NCBI GenBank assembly: GCA_016193585.1
Contig: JACPRW010000010.1
Span: 40,962 to 104,961 of the forward strand
Reading direction: 5' to 3'
Source: Candidatus Aenigmatarchaeota archaeon
GTDB taxonomy: Archaea; Aenigmatarchaeota; Aenigmatarchaeia; GW2011-AR5
DNA: 64,000 bases
Below the pieces are notes generated by a model. It worked only from the letters and a program-made list of their open reading frames with translations, did no database searches and had not been told where the DNA came from. Positions within the stretch are counted from its first letter, which is position 1. Every line of letters begins with the position of its first letter. The position numbers and the translations under genes were made by a program. Of this stretch, positions 17,229-30,173 are shown piece after piece.

Positions 17229-17940
17229 CAGATACGTCGGTGAACAGTCTTTTAATACTTTAAGCACGGATAGTAGTTGGGTTTTCAGCGGCGTGAACGT
17301 CCGTTCACGTCGAAGGGCGGCTTGGTTTGGCAACTGTTGCTCACAGGATTTTGATACGCAGAGGGCGCACTGTCCTTTGGTAATCAGCAATTAGCAGAAC
17401 CAACCGTTTCTCTGTTTCATAATCACGAGCTCTTCGGAGCGATGAATCACGCTGCGCGCCTCGGTAATGGCGTTGTTTTCGAGTGTATGCAAAAAAGAAA
17501 CGGCGGACGCACGGCGTCCGTCCCGCATGCGATGAAAAAACAGTTCACGCGCAGCTCAGGTGAAGGCATTATGCAGTCATAATGTCGGATAGAGGTATGA
17601 GCAGGCCAAACACTATTAGAAAAATTTGCAGGGTAAGTGTTTTCCCTACAATTCCGGTTGATCCCGCCGGAGACTACCTTTATCAGGATTCGGCTAAGCC
17701 ATGCGAGTCACTGCCGCAAGGCAGGGCGAACTGCTCAGTAACACGTAGCTAATCTGCCCTCAGGAAGGGGATAACGCCGCGAAAGTGGCGATAATACCCT
17801 ATAGGCGATAGAGGCTGGAAGGCGCTTTCGCCAAAAGCCGCAAGGCACCTGAGGATGAGGCTGCGGCGGATTAAGCTGTTGTTAGGATAAATGCCTAACA
17901 AACTTATAATCCGTACGGGTCGTGAGAGCGATAGCCCGGA

Positions 17941-18818
17941 GAGAGGTGGTTAACTTTAAATTTTCCCTGAGGCAAGTACCTGTATGCATGTGAATGAAAG
18001 ACGCATGTCAAGATTTATAGGGTATCTGTTCAGTGATGGGAGTTTAAGACGCAAAAAGAATAAAATGGGAATAGAACAAGTAGAAGTTTCGATAGAGTGT
18101 GCAGATCTAGCGATAGTGCAGGATTTTCGGCAACTTTGTAGCGACATTTTAGGAAGAAACGTTGGGAAAATAACCAAGAGAAAACGTGATAAAAACTGGA
18201 GAGCCAGCTACAGCTTTTATTGCAAGTTAAATAAAGAGTGGAGAAAGTTTTTGTTTAGCATGTCACCAACTTTTAGAACTTCTCCATGCCTGGTTAACCT
18301 CCACGGCGGTAAGCTGTGTCAGAAATGTTTAACAAAACACTATAAAGACACGACGTACCCGGGGATTAAAATCCCAAGATTCGTTTATAAAAGCAATAAC
18401 AACATAAAGGATTTTCTTCAGGCATTCACAAATTCAGAAGGAAGTGTTCAGTTAAGAGCAAATAGACATGGCAAATGGCTTGAGTTTTCAAGACATATAA
18501 AGATTTCAACTGAACATCCGCTGCTATTAAAAGGAATTTCTAGGATGCTGAAAACCCTTAAAATAAATCATAGATTTGTGCCGAAAACAAACCCAAATTC
18601 AGTGATAATACAACAAAAAGAATCGATCAAAAAATTTCGAAAATTAATTGGATTCATGGGTGGCATCAGAATAACCCCAACGGGTATCTGGGGAAACTAT
18701 GAAAAAACAAAAATTCTAGATGCAATAATAAAGACATTCGATTTTGATCGAGGATTTCTGCAAACATTTTTAGATGATAATGAAATATACTCTTTCATAA
18801 AAGTTAACCACCTCCCGG
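17941..18818 (+). mobile_element. 16S intron 1 with LAGLIDADG gene
   Basis: Terminal complementarity GAGAGGTGGTTAACTTT / AAAGTTAACCACCTC; interrupts the conserved region after AGCCCGGA. Confidence 0.8.
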
Positions 18819-18859
18819 ATATGGCTTCTGAGATTTGCAGAATAGAATCTCTGAAGTAA
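17984..18859 (+). CDS. LAGLIDADG homing endonuclease
   Basis: FIGYLFSDGSL and FLQAFTNSEGSV; C-terminus appears to read into the 3' exon. Confidence 0.85.
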   Translation: MHVNERRMSRFIGYLFSDGSLRRKKNKMGIEQVEVSIECADLAIVQDFRQLCSDILGRNVGKITKRKRDKNWRASYSFYCKLNKEWRKFLFSMSPTFRTSPCLVNLHGGKLCQKCLTKHYKDTTYPGIKIPRFVYKSNNNIKDFLQAFTNSEGSVQLRANRHGKWLEFSRHIKISTEHPLLLKGISRMLKTLKINHRFVPKTNPNSVIIQQKESIKKFRKLIGFMGGIRITPTGIWGNYEKTKILDAIIKTFDFDRGFLQTFLDDNEIYSFIKVNHLPDMASEICRIESLK

Positions 18860-19075
18860 GAATGCTCTCATTGAGCCGCATTCTTAGGCTTGCTGTTCTG
18901 CGAACAGAAAACATAAAGCCAGGCTCTACGGAGCGCAGCAGGCGCGAAACCTTTCCAATGCGCGAAAGCGTGAGAAGGGAATCCTGAGTGATTTCGCGCG
19001 AGCGAAATCTTTTCTCTAGTCTAAACAGCTGGAGGAATAAGTGGTGGGTAAGACGGTTGCCAGCCGCCGCGGTAA

Positions 19076-19157
19076 TTTGCAGAATCGACGCACGATTCAG
19101 TCTGGCATCGCATGGATTTCAGGCGATTCTGAAATTTCCGGTTCTGCGAACCGTAAA
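19076..19157 (+). mobile_element. 16S ORF-less insertion at the ~530 loop (GCGGTAA | CCGCGCC)
   Basis: ~80 nt between universally conserved 16S segments. Confidence 0.75.
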
Positions 19158-19233
19158 TAACCGCGCCACGAGAGGTAGTCACGATTATTGGGCCTGAAGC
19201 GCCCGTAGCCGGGCTGGTGTGTCTCTGGTGAAA

Positions 19234-19300
19234 TTCGCAAAAAGCAGAGCTTTTTGGAATTTGCTGTTCGCAACTTCCGATGCTTCATTTGCGAACACCA
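19234..19300 (+). repeat. 16S insertion containing CAAAAAGC-aga-GCTTTTTG hairpin
   Basis: Extra sequence in the helix before GGAGATACTACCAGTC; hairpin nearly identical to those in E2 and a 23S insertion. Confidence 0.7.
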
Positions 19301-19894
19301 AATCCGGCAGCAAACTGTCGGGCTTGCTGGAGATACTACCAGTCTTGGGACCGGGAGAGGCCGATGGTACGTTACGGGTAAGGGTAAAATCTTTTAATCC
19401 GTAACGGACCACCTGTGGCGAAGGCGATCGGCTGGAACGGGTTCGACGGTGAGGGGCGAAAGCTAGGGGAGCGATCGGGATTAGATACCCCGGTAGTCCT
19501 AGCTGTTAACGATGCCCGCTTGGTGTTGCATGTCCTTCGTGGACATGCAGTGTCGTAGCGAAGGCGATAAGCGGGCCGCCTGGGGAGTACGACCGCAAGG
19601 TTGAAACTTAAGGGAATTGGCGGGGGAGCACTACCAGGGGTGGAGGCTGCGGTTCAATTGGATTCAACGCCAGGAACCTGACCCGGGAAGACAGCAGAAT
19701 GAGGGTCACTCTGAAGGGGTTACCTGACAAGCTGAGAGGTGCTGCATGGCCGTCGTCAGTTCGTGCTGTGAAGTGTCATGTTAAGTCATGAAACGAACGA
19801 GACCCGTGCCGCTAGTTGCCACTCCCTTCTTCGGAAGGGAAGCACTCTATCGGGACCGCTGGTGCTAAACCAGAGGAAGGGACGGTCGACGGCA

Positions 19895-20725
19895 GATAGG
19901 GGAAGGTGAATCTACAAATACTAGCCTAAACAAGGTTAGTATATGCCTCCAACGTCAGTATCTTTACATCAAATTAGAAAGATGTTCAGAGACGTTAAGA
20001 AACTGACAAAAGATTTCAGAGAAATAAAGCCAGAATTGATTGAAAATGATGCATCCAAAATACTAATCTTGCGCTTGGCTCTCCAAATGTCGCAAAATAA
20101 TTTTGAAACATTTGTCGGGGCTGAAAACAACAAGAATATCAGCAAGTATGAAAGGGGCATCATAAAGAAAATGAAAGCGAAAACTGCAGAAAAGTACATA
20201 GAAAAGATTAAAGGAAAACTAAAAGAAAATGTAACAGAAGAAAATGTACTTCTGGCTTACAAAAGAATGGCTTCTGAATCAAATGGTTTCTTCAAAGCAA
20301 ACCAAGGGACTAAAAAAGTTCTCTTGGCCCAAAGAAAAGGTGCAATAAATTCATTGCGTCTCAGATCGACTGAACAGGAAATGTCTGTGATGGCTTTTCT
20401 CGAGTCTAACGGACTTAATCCAGAGATAAATTTTCCATTAGACGAAAACAAAGGCATCATAACCGACATCTTTCTACGAGATCATCATATAGCAATTGAA
20501 TGTAAGGATATCAAAACAAAAAGCTACAAAGAGCACAAAAATAACATACGGCTTCTTGCATATCAAGGTTATAGAATAAAATTTAATTTCAAAACACTAA
20601 AACTTGCTGCATTCGTGAAATCTAACTTCGCAGTAAGTCAGAGAGACCTTGAAGAATTGAAAGGACCTTATGATTTTGTTTTTACTGACGTTGGAGAGCT
20701 GAAGCATATCATCGTCCCCTAGCCG
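19895..20725 (+). mobile_element. 16S intron near site ~1205 encoding a non-LAGLIDADG nuclease
   Basis: ATAGGGGA...TCCCCTA terminal stem; interrupts GACGGTCGACGGCAG | ATGTCAGTATGGCCCGAATTCC. Confidence 0.85.
19943..20722 (+). CDS. Predicted XRE-HTH + PD-(D/E)XK-like (putative homing) endonuclease
   Basis: LALQMSQNNFETFVG..ISKYERG HTH-like; RSTEQEMSVMAFLESNG...ITDIFLRDHHIAIECKD nuclease-like motif; no LAGLIDADG. Confidence 0.65.
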   Translation: MPPTSVSLHQIRKMFRDVKKLTKDFREIKPELIENDASKILILRLALQMSQNNFETFVGAENNKNISKYERGIIKKMKAKTAEKYIEKIKGKLKENVTEENVLLAYKRMASESNGFFKANQGTKKVLLAQRKGAINSLRLRSTEQEMSVMAFLESNGLNPEINFPLDENKGIITDIFLRDHHIAIECKDIKTKSYKEHKNNIRLLAYQGYRIKFNFKTLKLAAFVKSNFAVSQRDLEELKGPYDFVFTDVGELKHIIVP

Positions 20726-20895
20726 ATGTCAGTATGGCCCGAATTCCCTGGGGTTACACGCGGCCTACAATGCGTAGGACAATGGGATGCGATGCCGTGA
20801 GGCAAAGCCAATCTCCTAAACCTACGCTTAGTTCGGATCGGGGGCTGCAACCCGCCCCCGTGAAGCCGGAATCCCTAGTAAGCGAAGGTCATCAT

Positions 20896-20993
20896 GAATG
20901 CGCGTTCGCAGGATGATTGGTCGTGCATGCGGCGGAGTGTAACGCTGCGTGCAGTGCAGCACAATGACATGTTCGCGCGTCCGTGAACTCTTT
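20896..20993 (+). mobile_element. 16S ORF-less insertion near site ~1391
   Basis: ~100 nt between GGTCATCAT and GCTGAATGCGTCCCTGCTCCTTGCACACACC. Confidence 0.75.
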
Positions 20994-21002
20994 CGCTGAA
21001 TG

Positions 21003-21034
<32 letters not shown>

Positions 21035-21102
21035 GCCATCCGAGTGGGAACTTGGTGAGGCGTGCGTTGAGCACGTCGAATCAAGTTTCTGCAAGGAGGG
21101 CT

Positions 21103-21268
21103 AAGAGCTCTTCTGTTCGCGCAAAAGAGCGAGCATTCGTAAAGTAACGAATGGGCGATTTGATTTGCTGGGTATGTAGATTACAAGGCTTGACCCTGAA
21201 CCAGCAGAGATGACAGGACTGAAGCGGCAGTGACGACGTGTTCGTCACTCAGTATCCAGTCGTTGCTC
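21103..21268 (+). mobile_element. 16S ORF-less insertion near the 3' end
   Basis: ~165 nt between AAGGAGGGCTAAG and AACAAGGTAGCCGTACGGG. Confidence 0.7.
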
Positions 21269-22696: not shown

Positions 22697-24038
22697 TTAT
22701 GAGCTACCGATGGGAACCGCAGCGCATCGAGCTGCCGCTCGACGTCAGGTGGCCGCAGTTGCGGGAAGTCTATGAGCGTCTCGACAGGAAGGGGAAAAAG
22801 TCTCGGTATCGAGACGCATCCGACCTACCTCATTGTCGTTGCCGTACCGCTTGATCCTCGGGACATGAGCGACATCCGGCGGGTGAACGGACCGGAAGGC
22901 TACCATGCAGGGGATTGAATCGCGGCTCCCGCACTCGTCATCTTTATATACTTTTATCCGGTATTAGTGCTGGTTGCAGGGTCAGCAATCCTGCGTTTGT
23001 TTTACAGTACCATACGAGAAAACTACCGAGGCTGTTCAGAGTCGGTACAAGCTTTGTGGCAGAAGCGTGTGTCGTCAGCGGGTAGCGGCGTGAATCAGAA
23101 CGTCACTATGCATGCGTTGCTTCTGGACTTCTTCGGTGCACTACCTGCAATGGCAGCACGCTGTGCGAGTCAGCTGTTGTCGGTTGACATGTGGCCGGCC
23201 AGCGCCGCTGGTTTGGTTGAATGCTGATGTTCTTGATGAGGCAGTCATAGTCCAGGACGAAGATAGCTAGCTCCCACGCTGTCAGGTGGATAGCTCGGTT
23301 CGCGAGGCGACGAAGGAGGTGGCAAGCTGCCGTAAGGTGCGGCAAGGCGCATGCAGCCTTTGAACCGCACATCTCCGAATGGCACATAGCCGACAACTCG
23401 CGGAAGACAAATCGACGCACCCTCAGGTGCGTCAAGTCGCTTTCTGCGAGAGCGAACGCAGAGAATTAAAACATTTTAGTACCTGCAGAAAGAGAAAGCA
23501 ACAGCGATCTCCCCAGTAATGGCGAATGAAAAGGAGACAGAACAAACCGAAGCTCCCTGGAAACAGGGTAGCGATGTGGAGAGGGCAGGGGCCGTTCTTC
23601 GTTTGCCGACCCGAAGTGTGCTGGAACGCACTGGTACAAAGCGTGATACCCGCGTAGGGGAAGGCAAAAAAGAATATGCCCTGCTGCACGAGTATGGCCG
23701 GCCGGATAGCCGGTCAGAATACGGGTCTCATCTAGACCCAATTCTAAACACTCCGCGAAACCGATAGTGAAGTAGTACGGTGACGGAACGATGAAAAGAA
23801 GGGGTAACACCCGATGAAAAAAGCTTGAAACCTGGCAGCTATCGTTTGTTGGGTAAGGCTCCCGCAAGGGAGAAGAATCCAACGTCCGTTTTGAATAACG
23901 GGGCAGGGAGTTCATGGCAGTGGCGAGGCTAAGCGCTTCACGCGCGGAGCCGGAGCGAAAGCGAATGCGCGCAGGCAACAAGGCGCACCGTATGAAAGTG
24001 CGGAAGTCACTGCCCTGAGACCTGAAAATTTGGGAGTG

Positions 24039-24862
24039 AGTGAAGGTTTGCTGGCTCGATGGGCTTATTTTTCTTTTGCTGAAGCGAAATTAAGATAAGC
24101 CCATCTTGCCCAATAAGTCTATGGAAGCGAGAGATACGTTGATGGCTCGGCTCATAGCTTTGTTGCTTACCGATGGCGGACTTTGTGGAATAGGTAAAAG
24201 GTGGCGGATTCATTTCACGTCAAATTCAGAACAATTGGTAAGTGAATTCCAAGCACTGGTAAAGAATCTTTTCGATCTCAAAATGGTAAAAGACTATCGG
24301 AAAGGTGCATGGAGAATTCAGACATGGGTGAGCAATAAAGTGAAAGAAGAGCTTTTAGCATATTCCAAAACGTATAGAACGCTTTCTATAGAGGAAAAAG
24401 AGACGGAAGCTGAAATACCGGCTTTTATCAGAAACGACAAAGAACTTGCACGCGAATTCCTAAAATATGCATTCACGGCAGACGGGACAGTAATTTTCAA
24501 CATCGGAAAAGCACGGTATGGCTTTAGGTTCGATAGATGCGTGAAATTATATTCCGAGCACGCCCGTCTGAGAAACCAGTATTTCGAACTTTTGCAGAAA
24601 CTTGGTTATAGACCGGTCATGCTTAAAGATGCGGTGCTGCTAAGAAAGCCAACCAACATGACTAAGTTTGCAAACGAAATTGGTTTTGTAGAAGGTGTAA
24701 AAATTTCAGGCAAAGGTTTATGGAAAGGTATTACAAAAGACCGATTAACGGAATTCGCCGCAAATTCGTACAGTTTGAAGCCGAAAAAATTGGGGAAATC
24801 AAAAGCTGACATTCATGCGAACCTTGTAAATCTCATTCTCAAATCAGGAGACCAGATGATCT
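24039..24862 (+). mobile_element. 23S intron with LAGLIDADG gene
   Basis: Interrupts ..GGGAGTGAG | CTAGCCCTGGGCAAGG.. Confidence 0.8.
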
Positions 24863-24864
24863 AG
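24106..24864 (+). CDS. LAGLIDADG homing endonuclease
   Basis: LIALLLTDGGL and FLKYAFTADGTV; stop TAG lies in the 3' exon CTAGCCCTGGG. Confidence 0.88.
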   Translation: MPNKSMEARDTLMARLIALLLTDGGLCGIGKRWRIHFTSNSEQLVSEFQALVKNLFDLKMVKDYRKGAWRIQTWVSNKVKEELLAYSKTYRTLSIEEKETEAEIPAFIRNDKELAREFLKYAFTADGTVIFNIGKARYGFRFDRCVKLYSEHARLRNQYFELLQKLGYRPVMLKDAVLLRKPTNMTKFANEIGFVEGVKISGKGLWKGITKDRLTEFAANSYSLKPKKLGKSKADIHANLVNLILKSGDQMI

Positions 24865-24956
24865 CCCTGGGCAAGGCGACGCTGGGCGAAAGCTCAGTAG
24901 AAGCCTGCTACCGAACATAGTACAAACTTGTCGGGTGACCTGGGGTTAGGGGTGAA

Positions 24957-25273
24957 ATTCAGGGAGAAGAAGACTTAAGAAGATGTCCGTGAAAATGCGA
25001 GGAATGGGAACATGTGAGTATTGCAAACGTCCTGTATCGCCATTCGGCGATATGTCACGAGGGATACCGGGCCCATCGTATGCACTGCTGGAAGATGGTA
25101 AAGAAATAGCATTTTGCGGGGTTCCTTGTGAAATGTTCTATGTGCTGGAAACGGGCACTTCGCTCAGAAAAACTGATGGAAGACCGAATGAAGCATTTCC
25201 AAGCGATATTGGAAGTGAAGGCATCGCGGATCCTAAACATCCTGGATATAGCAAGAACTAGTTCTCTCTGAAC
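24957..25273 (+). mobile_element. 23S intron encoding a small zinc protein
   Basis: TTCAGGGAGAA / TTCTCTCTGAA termini; interrupts GGGGTGAAA | AATCGAATCTGG. Confidence 0.75.
24983..25261 (+). CDS. Intron-encoded TRASH-like zinc-binding protein (92 aa)
   Basis: CEYCKRPV...IAFCGVPCEMFYVLE (CxxC..FCxxxCxxFY). Confidence 0.55.
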   Translation: MSVKMRGMGTCEYCKRPVSPFGDMSRGIPGPSYALLEDGKEIAFCGVPCEMFYVLETGTSLRKTDGRPNEAFPSDIGSEGIADPKHPGYSKN

Positions 25274-25620
25274 ACCAAAAGCCAATCGAATCTGGTTATA
25301 GCGGGTTCCTTCCGAAATGTATCTCAGTACAGCCTCGTCTTGGGTAGATAGTGGGGTAGAGCACTGATTAGGCAGTCAAGGAGGGAGACTTCCACCTGTC
25401 TTGTCAAACTCCGAATCCATTATCGCGCAGACGGGAGTGAGCATGCCGGAGTAATTTTGGCATGCGAGAGGGAAACAACCCAGACCATGGTTAAGGTCCC
25501 TAAGTAGCTGTTAAGTACACCGAAGGTAGTCCTGAATCTCAGACAACGGGAAGGTTGTCTTAGAAGTAGACATCCTATAATCAACGTGTAATAACGGACC
25601 CGCCGAGATTCAGGGCGCTG

Positions 25621-25690
25621 AAAATAAACTTTTTGGGAAAAAGTTTAATCAAAAACCCAGAATGTTTGTCAGCAAAATGGACGGGGTTAA
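25621..25690 (+). mobile_element. 23S mini-insertion homologous to the tRNA-Val D-arm intron
   Basis: TAAACTTTTTGGGAAAAAGTTTAATCAAAAACCCAGAAT vs TAAGCTTTTTGGGAAAAAGCTTAACCAAAAACTTGGAAT. Confidence 0.75.
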
Positions 25691-25830
25691 ACAGCTCACC
25701 GATACCATGGGCACTGCACCCGCAGTGTGGTAGGGAGGCGTGCTGCGAGGGCAGAAGCTTCTCCGTGAGGAGGGGTGGACCTTGCAGCAATGAAGATCCT
25801 GCCGGGAGTAGCAATCAAGTCGGGCGAGAA

Positions 25831-26198
25831 ATGGCAGGAGAAGGTATATGAAAGTTTCTGATAGAGTAAATAGTACTGATAAATAGACTTGAAATAAGGT
25901 TTTCCACATGCATCAGTATAGGCTTAGTCTAAAAAGATGGAAAATTTCAAGTGAATTGCCGCGTATAGCAGGCGAGTTTTATGAAGCAGTACACAAACGG
26001 CAACTCTGGGATAATTTAAGACCCGAATTATCAATTAAACCTGATGGGCCTTATGTCAATACGTGCCATCTTAGAGTCAGGAAAGGATTATACCCAGCTA
26101 TTTATTCTATGGCAGATTCTTACGATTTAGAAATAGAAGATACAACATCTTTGTTTCTACGACTTAAGTTTTGGTAATTCTTTCTCCTCCACTCAATT
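25831..26198 (+). mobile_element. 23S intron encoding an 89-aa orphan protein
   Basis: AGGAGAA / TTTCTCCT termini; interrupts GTCGGGCGAGAA | AATTCCCGACCGCC. Confidence 0.7.
25908..26177 (+). CDS. Intron-encoded orphan protein (89 aa)
   Basis: ORF fills the insertion; no recognised family. Confidence 0.45.
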   Translation: MHQYRLSLKRWKISSELPRIAGEFYEAVHKRQLWDNLRPELSIKPDGPYVNTCHLRVRKGLYPAIYSMADSYDLEIEDTTSLFLRLKFW

Positions 26199-26995
26199 CC
26201 CGACCGCCTGAGGGGCCAGGGTTTCCGCTTAAAGCTTATCTGAGCGGAGTTAGCCGGTCCTAACCGCGCTCTTACGAAGACGCGTGGGAAAGGGAAACAG
26301 GTTAACATTCCTGTGCCATCCAGTGTTCGTCAATCCTGCGGTAAACGCTTCAGGATAGTCCGAGTATGGTCGTCGCCATATCCAAGCCTCGAAGCCGGGG
26401 GAGTGTAGTAACTGCGAGAACCCGGTGAAAGGGTGACGGGACTGATGTATGTCGGTTTTGGACGACTCCCGGAGCCCATGAAAATACTGCAGAGTAGAAT
26501 GCTGGGTGCCCGTACCCAGAACCGACTGTTTAGTTGATGTACTCAACTAAATCGGGAAACAGGTGCCCCTCGCTGAGAACTGAAAAGAGAAGTGTAAACG
26601 CACAGGCAAGAAGTACTCTGAAACCAGCGATCCAGAGCGGTCGATAAACTATGTAGCCAAGCCTGCCAGTGCACGAAACTGGAACTTCTTTTCTTTTCAC
26701 TCAATGGCGAAGGTGTTCGGGAGAATCCGCCTTAGGGAATTCGGCACGAATTGTTTGTTCATGCAAACATTCCCGTAAAATTAGCCGGGTATCTTTGGTA
26801 GAACCGGTGCCTAGTCAGGGATGACTAGGTCGCAGTGACAAGAGGGGTCCGACTGTTTAACAAAAACATAACTGACCGACAAGCCGAAAGGCCTTTTATG
26901 GTCAGCGAGTCGTGGCCACTAGCGGTGTGTGAAACCCCATTCCAATGGGTCTATGCCCCGCTGTAGGCCGGCCCTAACTCTGAGGGTCTTAAGGT

Positions 26996-27288
26996 GACAA
27001 CGTTGCCTTAGTAAAATTTGGCTATATGCGGGAACATCTTGGTGAAGCTTCAGTAGGCAACTGCTGTGGCGACACGGCAACAAAACCTAACAATCTGAAG
27101 CCAAGAGACAATCCGCAGGAAAGGCTTCTCTTTTGGAGAAGAATCCCCAGAGACTGTACGCCAGACTCTTCAATCGGAAGAGAAGATACAGTCCGAACCT
27201 CACGGTGACGTGAGGAGGCGCCAGCGAGTGCCCGCCTTTCACGATAATTATCCGAACCAATGTGAAAGGTTCCCAAGCAACAGAATTG
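26996..27288 (+). mobile_element. Group I intron in 23S rRNA (site ~1931), no ORF
   Basis: P1 AAGGU/GCCUU with U.G at the splice site; P/Q TATGCGGGAAC ... GACAATCCGCAGG; R/S AGACTGTACGCC ... AAGATACAGTCCGAACC; terminal G before exon AGCGTAATCCC. Confidence 0.9.
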
Positions 27289-27310
27289 AGCGTAATCCCT
27301 TGCCAACTAA

Positions 27311-27363
27311 ATTGCAAAAAGCAAAGCTTTTTGGGATCCCCGAAAAGCCATGCTTTTCGTAGA
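27311..27363 (+). repeat. 23S insertion: double hairpin with GGATCC linker
   Basis: CAAAAAGC-aaa-GCTTTTTG GGATCC CGAAAAGC-cat-GCTTTTCG. Confidence 0.8.
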
Positions 27364-27626
27364 TATTGGCCTGCATGATAGATTCACGAGATCCCTGCTG
27401 TCCCGAGGCGGAACCCGGCGAAACCATTTTTCTGGTGAGTAGGCCAGAGACCTCTAGTGGGAAGAGTAGACCCCGTGGAGCTTTACTGTAGTCTGATGTT
27501 GTGGTATGCGTATGAGTGTATAGCGTAGGTAGGAGGCGTCGAAGCCCTGCTGTAAGGTGGGGTGGAGCCGGCGATGTAACACTACCCATTCAAACGCATA
27601 TCGCTCACTTCGCGAGAAGGACACCA

Positions 27627-28280
27627 TCAGATGGACAGTTTGGCTGGGAATTCAAGAGAGGCTAACGAGTTTTTGGCAATCCCAAATTTAGGCGAGTTGC
27701 TATCAGACACAAGGCTCTCATCCAAGAACCCTGAAACTGAAAGAAAGCGCTTGCAGTTGTCAAATCCGGTGATGAGCACAGCCCTGCCGGTCAACCGGCA
27801 CTGTATGTCAAGCGTGGCAAGGCATTCGGCGAGGTGCGTTCTGAGATGCGGATAGTAGCAAGTAATTTCAACTCTGAGTATGCTGTATTTTTTGTTGGCA
27901 TACACTGAACCGTCGCCAGAAGCAAACCCCCTGAGAAAAGCTGCCGCAAAGCTCCTGTCGGTGCGTATAGCAACAGGAACGTTGCAGGTACCTTTTCTAT
28001 AGTGGGGATGCTTTGCTTCCACGCCGTTTCCGGGGATTGATAAGGAAATCAAGGCTCTAGCAATTGGTGAGGAAAAGAACCTCACCGAAACCGCATTGGT
28101 GCATTTGTTTTCGTGAAACCTGCTGATACCGAAACAGTCATGCGCAAGTTTCATGAAAACGTGCCTCAAGCCTTGAAGCTTATTGGTAAATTGGATGCAA
28201 TACGTGCGTTTCGATTTGTCATAATAAATTGAGCCGTCTGATAACAACAAACCGAGAAAAGTTGCCATCTTTTCGTCCAT
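27627..28280 (-). CDS. LAGLIDADG homing endonuclease encoded antisense to 23S rRNA
   Basis: FLGLLLSDGSI and FLRGFASGDGSV; likely start MDEKMATF; stop in the upstream rRNA exon. Confidence 0.85.
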   Translation of the reverse strand: MDEKMATFLGLLLSDGSIYYDKSKRTYCIQFTNKLQGLRHVFMKLAHDCFGISRFHENKCTNAVSVRFFSSPIARALISLSIPGNGVEAKHPHYRKGTCNVPVAIRTDRSFAAAFLRGFASGDGSVYANKKYSILRVEITCYYPHLRTHLAECLATLDIQCRLTGRAVLITGFDNCKRFLSVSGFLDESLVSDSNSPKFGIAKNSLASLEFPAKLSI

Positions 28281-28365
28281 GATGCTTGTTTGCTCCCTGT
28301 GTTTATAGGTGCTTGCCGAGCACATGAAGACTGAAAAGTCGATGAGTTTACTCTCTTGGGTCAGC
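27649..28365 (+). mobile_element. 23S intron carrying an antisense LAGLIDADG gene
   Basis: Interrupts GGACAGTTTGGCTGGG | GGCGGTACGC; CAAGAGAG / CTCTCTTG termini. Confidence 0.82.
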
Positions 28366-28569
28366 AGGCGGTACGCTTTTGAAAGGATATCAAAAGCCCC
28401 CAAAGTTCGGCTTGGCAGGGTCAGAAATCCTGCGGTCAAGTGCAAGCGCAAATGCCGGATTGACTGGACTCCCAACAGTACGGTGTCCAGCGTCGAAAGA
28501 CTGGGCTAGCGATACGCTGGTTGGCCTAGATGGCTGCCAGTGACATGAGAAAAGCTACCCCGGGGATAG

Positions 28570-29165
28570 ATTTATACGTCGGTGTGCACAAGTTAAGCGA
28601 ATGCAAGAAAAAGGTTTCATCTTGGGTGCAACTGAAGACGGTATACTCTACTACAGAGAGAATAAGAATGAATATGGCCTAGAAATCGAACAAAAAGTAA
28701 TGGAATGGCTGTTAGTTGTCCAGGAAGCGCTGAAAATTGCCTATAACAAGCAATCCAGAATAAGGAAAATGAAAAAGGGCTATTATAGGTTGAATGTGTA
28801 TTCAAAATCGCTCTATCATGAGCTGGTTGGATTACGAAACAACCCACAGCGCATTCTTGAGCAACCAGAAGCATTCCAGACTGGCTTCCTTCAAGGTATT
28901 TTTGATGCAGAAGGAAGCGTTCGATTAGATAGAAACCATATAAGCGTCAGCTCAAATAGGGAAAGTCTGATAAGCCTAGTTACTTTCCTGTTAGTCAAAA
29001 GGGATATAATTGCAGGAAAACCATGGCAAGATTCAGCTGGCGTGATATCTCTGTCAATATATGGCATAGATGATATCAAGAAGTTCTCTGATTTAGTAGG
29101 ATTCAGGCACCCTGAAAAAAAGCATAGACTTCAACTTTTAGTGAATGGTGTATAAATCCCCTATA
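28570..29165 (+). mobile_element. 23S intron in the peptidyl-transferase region with LAGLIDADG gene
   Basis: Interrupts GCTACCCCGGGGATA | GGTGTCGTAGCGGGTGAGAG. Confidence 0.8.
28601..29155 (+). CDS. Single-motif LAGLIDADG homing endonuclease
   Basis: FLQGIFDAEGSVRL. Confidence 0.8.
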   Translation: MQEKGFILGATEDGILYYRENKNEYGLEIEQKVMEWLLVVQEALKIAYNKQSRIRKMKKGYYRLNVYSKSLYHELVGLRNNPQRILEQPEAFQTGFLQGIFDAEGSVRLDRNHISVSSNRESLISLVTFLLVKRDIIAGKPWQDSAGVISLSIYGIDDIKKFSDLVGFRHPEKKHRLQLLVNGV

Positions 29166-29198
29166 ATGGTGTCGTAGCGGGTGAGAGTTCTCATCCGC

Positions 29199-29446
29199 GC
29201 TCTTCTTGAGGAATAACGCTGGTAGTGACGAGAATATACCCGTCCCAGTATGAGCGCCGCTTCGCGGCGCGGTGATTACAGCAGGGTAGCTTCTGAACCA
29301 GGCGAAACGTTGTTCCGCAAACACTAGCTAGATGAAGAGCTCATAGCCTTCGAGCCGTCGAAGGCGCTCAGAGCTGTCGTTAGTAAGCAGAACCGAGAGC
29401 CGTGGAGGTCTCGGAACTGCGAGCGAAGCGAGTGGTTCTGAGTGCG
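29199..29446 (+). mobile_element. 23S ORF-less intron
   Basis: TCCGCGCTC / GAGTGCGGA termini; interrupts GAGAGTTCTCAT | CAGATCGACCCCGCG. Confidence 0.72.
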
Positions 29447-29509
29447 GAGAACAGATCGACCCCGCGTGTTGCGGCGTCGCTGTCGGCTGGGCCTCTCCTG
29501 GCTGTGCAG

Positions 29510-29624
29510 CAAAGAAATAAGGCGAACATCTTGCTTGCCCTCAACCGTTTGACACGGCGGATAGCCTCGTATGAAGAACGGCGTTACAAGCGGGATAAGA
29601 ATAACGCCTTGTTTCTCTGCATGC
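29510..29624 (+). mobile_element. 23S ORF-less insertion
   Basis: GCAAAGAAATAAGGCG / CGCCTTGTTTCTCTGC termini. Confidence 0.68.
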
Positions 29625-30173
29625 AGCCAAGGGTGACGGAGTTCACGTATTAAAAGGCCACCTTAGCTGGGTTCAGAACGGCGTGAGCCAGTTTGGTCTA
29701 TATCTGCTAGAGGTGTTACTGCCTGAGGGAAAGGAGGGATAAGTACGAAAGGAACATCCCTTCGTGGCCTCTAGTTTACCTGCTGTCTGACAAGGCATGC
29801 AGGGTAGCCACGCCATACGCTCATTAGGGCTGAAGGCATCTAAGCCTGAAGGAGCTCTCGAAAAGAGGCAGATGGTACGCGCAAGACGACGCGGTATGGG
29901 AGCGGGGTGTACGCACCGAGCTTCGGCGAGGTGTTCAGCCCACGCTTCCCTACACCAATGCTAGCCTTCAAATGGCGCCAGTTGCGGCTGGCGCTTCCTG
30001 GAAACAGGGTCCTGAGACTATGACTGCCCCACGGGAAACGCAGGAATAGCTACTTTAACCTACATTCTCGGGTATAGAAAGGCTTATATATTAGTCCGTT
30101 ATATAAAGTAGTACGTGTGGTTTGGGTTACTCAGTTAATTCAATACATTACAGGCTAGATTGGGGTGTGGACT

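Follow-up and report, generated by a model that had tools for sequence, protein, structure and literature searches.

The 23S rRNA gene of this Candidatus Aenigmatarchaeota archaeon is interrupted in the P-loop by an archaeal BHB intron, and this intron carries a LAGLIDADG homing endonuclease gene on the strand opposite to the rRNA. We consider it likely that the whole is a mobile intron inserted after position 2252 (E. coli numbering), whose opposite-strand homing gene is served by a promoter of its own. The window (the whole stretch of DNA analysed, 64,000 nucleotides) contains the following features, in window coordinates.

23262..29969, + strand: 23S rRNA host gene with several introns (Rfam RF02540 over its full length; insert map)
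27649..28367, + strand: 719-nt archaeal BHB intron in the P-loop, after E. coli 23S position 2252 (canonical BHB; ligated exons CUGGG^GCGGUACGC)
27633..27648, + strand: 5' exon end GGACAGTTTGGCTGGG, P-loop, left half of the presumed homing site (comparison with E. coli)
28368..28381, + strand: 3' exon start GCGGTACGCTTTTG, right half of the presumed homing site (BHB borders)
27627..28280, - strand: gene for a 217-aa LAGLIDADG homing endonuclease, antisense to the rRNA (PF14528; homologues; codon constraint; predicted fold)
27627..27648, - strand: last six codons of that gene (PAKLSI) and its stop, the complement of 22 nt of the 5' exon (reading frame; homologue comparison)
28302..28307, - strand: TATAAA, candidate leaderless archaeal promoter of the antisense gene, 27 nt before its ATG (recurrence in homologues)
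26965-27215, same 23S gene: group I intron without an endonuclease gene (Rfam)

The intron at 27649-28367 has the full architecture of an archaeal BHB intron, namely a 4-bp central helix (GCUG:CAGC), two 3-nt bulges at the borders (5' bulge GG/A, 3' bulge AG/G) and an inner helix of 11 bp. In 20,000 shuffles of the intron sequence the BHB never recurred, and Rfam gave no group I match at 27649-28367. The exon borders lie inside the CTGGG^GCGG of the P-loop (E. coli counterpart CTGGGGCGG at 2248-2256); at the sequence level, removal of the intron gives back a continuous conserved exon, and the predicted ligated junction in mature 23S RNA is CUGGGGCGGUACGC. The same motif is present in all seven homologues described below, with compensating changes in the inner helix. 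In two of these the splice site has slid, by 2 nt in G096 (L105/L126; central helix UGGG:CCCA) and by 3 nt in G005 (L111; central helix GGGG:CCCU), and in both the intron side is altered to fit. Predicted ligation gives back the conserved exon in all seven cases, and we infer that the 2252 intron is excised by splicing. G2252 of the P-loop pairs with the CCA end of tRNA. As the P-loop itself is interrupted, a failure of splicing should be lethal.

The preliminary description of this DNA had placed a LAGLIDADG gene opposite to the 23S rRNA, and this was borne out. The intact 217-aa frame (28280-27627, - strand) matches PF14528 (LAGLIDADG_3) with an E value of 4.5e-11, above the curated cut-off, contains both LAGLIDADG motifs (LGLLLSDGS and LRGFASGDGS) and is interrupted by neither a stop nor a frameshift. 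Its start is the ATG at 28280, which is conserved in homologues; the TTG start at 28475 given in the list of open reading frames was rejected, because homologues align from the ATG and the promoter spacing fits it. Among homologues, identity at codon positions 1, 2 and 3 is 53, 64 and 34%, dN is 0.49-0.72 and dS is saturated or above 2. The AlphaFold model has an I-DmoI-type LAGLIDADG fold (pLDDT 86.9) and lies near I-DmoI itself, although the closest solved structure, by sequence profile (E 7e-5) as well as by fold, is the TliVMA intein endonuclease (PDB 7qsu). The protein has the two helices of a monomeric LAGLIDADG endonuclease with one catalytic acidic residue each, as judged from Pfam, the predicted fold and the two catalytic aspartates, D15 and D123, which are invariant in the six intact copies. 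The codon-position pattern, the I-DmoI-type predicted fold, and the site and orientation common to seven homologues argue that the frame is more than chance; on these comparisons, it is under coding constraint.

A search of 156 genomes of the phylum added three homologues (G096, G073 and G005; 48-62% protein identity), and three more, from Micrarchaeota (L128, L129 and L130), came from a scan of 84,980 species genomes. Recognizable homologues thus number seven, four from Aenigmatarchaeota-phylum genomes (the window copy included) and three from Micrarchaeota; the carriers in the phylum include GenBank CP070662 (archaeon isolate bin779) and JACPJV010000031 (Candidatus Aenigmatarchaeota). Intact members were recovered with E values below 1e-90, and the next best matches had values of 1e-29 to 1e-34. 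A full search of 301 Micrarchaeota genomes yielded no further members, and no relatives were found among viral contigs and plasmids. The exon-intron border pattern also had three exact matches in other Micrarchaeota, but these lay outside rRNA (no LSU match) and were discarded.

It had been suggested in the preliminary description that orientation be compared in homologous introns. All seven homologues are antisense, in a 23S BHB intron at the 2252 site (two with splice sites slid by 2-3 nt). By contrast, at 80 LSU loci of the phylum every LAGLIDADG intron outside the 2252 site is in the sense orientation. The scan of 78 intron ORFs from these loci gave 47 PF14528 matches, antisense ones included; no match occurred in 17 control antisense ORFs. 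Antisense homing genes as a common occurrence in rRNA introns are ruled out by this survey, where all are sense except the 2252 family.

The preliminary description had also held that such a gene needs its own promoter, and the present data support this. A TATA-like box occurs in four of the seven homologues, at -27 in the window copy, -28/-27 in L129, -31 in L128 and -29 in L130. This compares with 5.4% at random antisense ATGs (P about 3e-4) and 5% at random intronic positions (P about 2e-4). The statistic relies on a fixed TATA pattern, controlled by position and by random ATGs; a Gibbs-like de novo search for promoter motifs returned no TATA motif. Upstream of divergent genes of this genome, TATA-like boxes are in excess at -32 to -27 (23 matches in six positions), a peak at the spacing of leaderless archaeal transcripts. 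In 23S introns of the phylum (loci L046-L125), sense ORFs of at least 150 aa are similarly equipped. TATA precedes 15 of these 52 ORFs against 1.8 expected; 17 matches fall at -34 to -29, and the stretch from -64 to -41 has none. Two of the 52 are preceded by Shine-Dalgarno motifs. The start of each sense gene was taken as its first ATG, which blurs these figures. The antisense gene most likely has its own leaderless promoter, as predicted from these patterns, and, whichever strand they occupy, the intronic homing genes of the phylum seem to be self-contained leaderless units. If so, the survival of the antisense one needs no special explanation. In principle, the spliced intron could supply the mRNA of a sense gene but never that of the antisense gene.

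A strict TATA at the expected distance is absent from three of the seven homologues; two of these have a GATAA-like sequence at -28 to -30 of an alternative ATG, and the third is the broken copy. These absences would be accommodated if the antisense gene had no intronic promoter and were expressed by read-through of a longer antisense transcript begun downstream of the intron, and promoters further out on the - strand would be compatible with the sequence. However, a TATA box at the leaderless distance is enriched about tenfold in the homologues, what lies further out on the - strand is more rRNA exons and sense introns, and the sense homing genes show the same private TATA. We therefore regard read-through as unlikely and favour the internal promoter.

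In a phylogenetic tree the seven homologues form one clade (95/95) once the row for G005 is counted in (X_L034p0_227, the second half of that broken copy). The four phylum copies are a subclade (97/95), within which G096 and G005 pair (98/92) and the window copy pairs weakly with G073, from the same order (82/47). The LSU loci of the phylum at the 2252 site include four with this intron, one with a mini-intron and 41 that are visibly uninterrupted. The mini-intron, in G113 (L083/L194), is a 42-nt BHB element; its position and central helix are the same, but it contains no gene, and it is either a remnant after gene loss or the state before gene arrival. The site thus displays the states of a homing cycle: intact (six copies), broken (G005), gene-less (G113) and empty. 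As for a homing intron, the same site is occupied in distant hosts, the occurrence is sporadic and the sites of relatives are empty. The distribution may fit horizontal homing or old vertical inheritance with losses, the phylum group itself being a subclade. The long persistence of the antisense arrangement argues against its carrying a heavy cost.

Homing genes usually decay after fixation, and the antisense frame could be a decaying relic that is no longer expressed and is merely carried along by a spliceable intron. The G005 copy, which is fast-evolving and broken by an internal loss and a frame change, and the 42-nt mini-intron that is all G113 retains at the site would both suit such a relic. 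The preliminary description had proposed looking for a disrupted frame in sibling strains; homologues of other genera were compared in their place, and G005 is the one in which the frame is lost. The other six copies are intact, with 38-50% protein identity and a clear constraint on codons. Together with the invariance of both catalytic aspartates and the uninterrupted window copy, this makes decay a quite improbable account of the gene, and we retain the reading of an expressed endonuclease.

The statement that the gene ends in the complement of the exon is correct for the window copy, whose last six codons and stop take up 22 nt of the 5' exon. Only this copy and L130 (51 nt) run into the exon. 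In G096, G073, L128 and L129 the frame ends 5 to 14 nt short of the exon, and G005 likewise has its stop within the intron. Because five of the seven homologues stop within the intron, the overlap is, as far as the reading frames indicate, incidental and set by where the next stop falls. An exon-encoded C-terminus is ruled out as a conserved feature, and the special role that had been envisaged for it finds no support.

The preliminary description further considered the mRNA to be antisense to the splice site. This holds for the 5' splice site if the predicted transcript is correct, but not for the 3' site. The predicted start, at about 28280, lies within the intron, some 87 nt away from the 3' splice site, and the predicted antisense RNA would thus cover the 5' site only. 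No T-run terminator was found within about 270 nt after the stop of the window gene, and the antisense RNA therefore probably continues into the 5' exon. It is very unlikely that this mRNA is functional against the pre-rRNA and that coupling of expression to splicing, in a cell with a single polymerase, has preserved the orientation across two phyla. A regulatory mRNA would pair with the pre-rRNA over the 5' splice site and couple endonuclease expression to splicing or rRNA output. This would suit the orientation conserved in the whole clade, and also the predicted transcript, which would be complementary to the 5' strand of the BHB, to the 5' splice site and, if no terminator intervenes, to the exon. 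Such a role is highly improbable given that a single inversion followed by spread accounts for the orientation without regulation, that the exon overlap varies and that rRNA transcripts should far outnumber any antisense mRNA.

We suggest instead a model of a mobile intron with a self-sufficient gene, in which what happens to the RNA and what happens to the DNA do not depend on each other. On the RNA side, the tRNA-splicing endonuclease would recognize the BHB motif observed here and cut the intron out of the pre-rRNA, restoring the P-loop. On the DNA side, the LAGLIDADG protein would be made from a separate leaderless antisense mRNA that starts at the predicted internal TATA box. As expected from its family membership and the sporadic distribution of the intron, the protein would cut the intronless 23S gene at the P-loop, and repair would copy the intron in. 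The single clade observed is consistent with the gene having been placed antisense once, the intron then being inherited or spreading across Aenigmatarchaeota and Micrarchaeota. The antisense orientation would be tolerated since, in these archaea, an intronic homing gene would bring its own promoter along in either direction.

The system resembles the archaeal 23S and 16S BHB introns with LAGLIDADG genes (I-DmoI, I-Tsp061I and relatives) in having a BHB at a conserved rRNA site and a monomeric protein with two motifs, here with a predicted I-DmoI-like fold. It differs from them in that the gene lies on the strand opposite to the rRNA. The TliVMA endonuclease, although closest in structure, belongs to an intein in a protein gene rather than to an rRNA intron. 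Archaeal group I introns in LSU rRNA (PMC6125680) share the type of host gene, and one is present in this 23S gene (26965-27215), but the 2252 intron has a BHB motif instead. Antisense homing genes are documented in group I introns of eukaryotic nuclear rDNA, namely the His-Cys genes of Didymium iridis S956-2 (I-DirII) and D. squamulosum L2066 (I-DsqI); opposite-strand expression has been demonstrated for I-DsqI, and spatial separation of polymerases was proposed as a way around interference (PMC9548176). In these, as here, an endonuclease gene antisense to the rRNA sits in a spliceable rDNA intron and needs a separate transcript. The Didymium systems combine a group I ribozyme with a His-Cys endonuclease whose gene has poly(A) and a spliceosomal intron; their rDNA is multicopy, and two RNA polymerases are at work. 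The 2252 system has a BHB intron, a LAGLIDADG protein (by Pfam) and a predicted leaderless promoter with a TATA box; there is one polymerase, and the assembly gives a single 23S match. It works like the antisense nuclear group I homing genes, yet is no member of that class. It is set apart from the known antisense homing genes by LAGLIDADG in place of His-Cys, BHB in place of group I, its archaeal host, its conserved family and its candidate promoter. A literature search, with most subscription papers outside its reach, found no earlier archaeal or BHB antisense case, and the words 'antisense', 'opposite' and 'orientation' are absent from three papers on archaeal and CPR rRNA introns (PMC4496867, PMC6125680 and PMC11270868).

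The expression of a protein gene that lies within an rRNA gene becomes an acute question when the gene faces the rRNA polymerase. Archaea have no nucleolus or second polymerase to part the two transcripts, as proposed for the slime moulds. The orientation kept across two archaeal phyla, the predicted private leaderless promoters in both orientations, and the intact, broken, gene-less and empty states make the question testable in archaea.

The genome is archaeal and measures 1.17 Mb, and an archaeal 16S gene lies at 17651-21143 (Rfam). Mapping against an LSU profile of 11 intronless relatives gave nine inserts of at least 60 nt in the 23S gene, some of which are probably expansion loops. Two more LAGLIDADG genes, both in the sense orientation, occupy other introns of this gene (24106-24864 and 28601-29155), and the former is a distant relative of the antisense protein. 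A 322-nt intron at profile site 840 (24957-25278) contains a 92-aa Cys-containing ORF with no Pfam match; introns of 323-388 nt with similar ends but unrelated small ORFs occur at this site in L097, L093, L089 and L117. The 367-nt intron at profile site 1338 (25831-26197) contains an 89-aa ORF of no known family, and introns with similar ends in L110 and L117 are without it.
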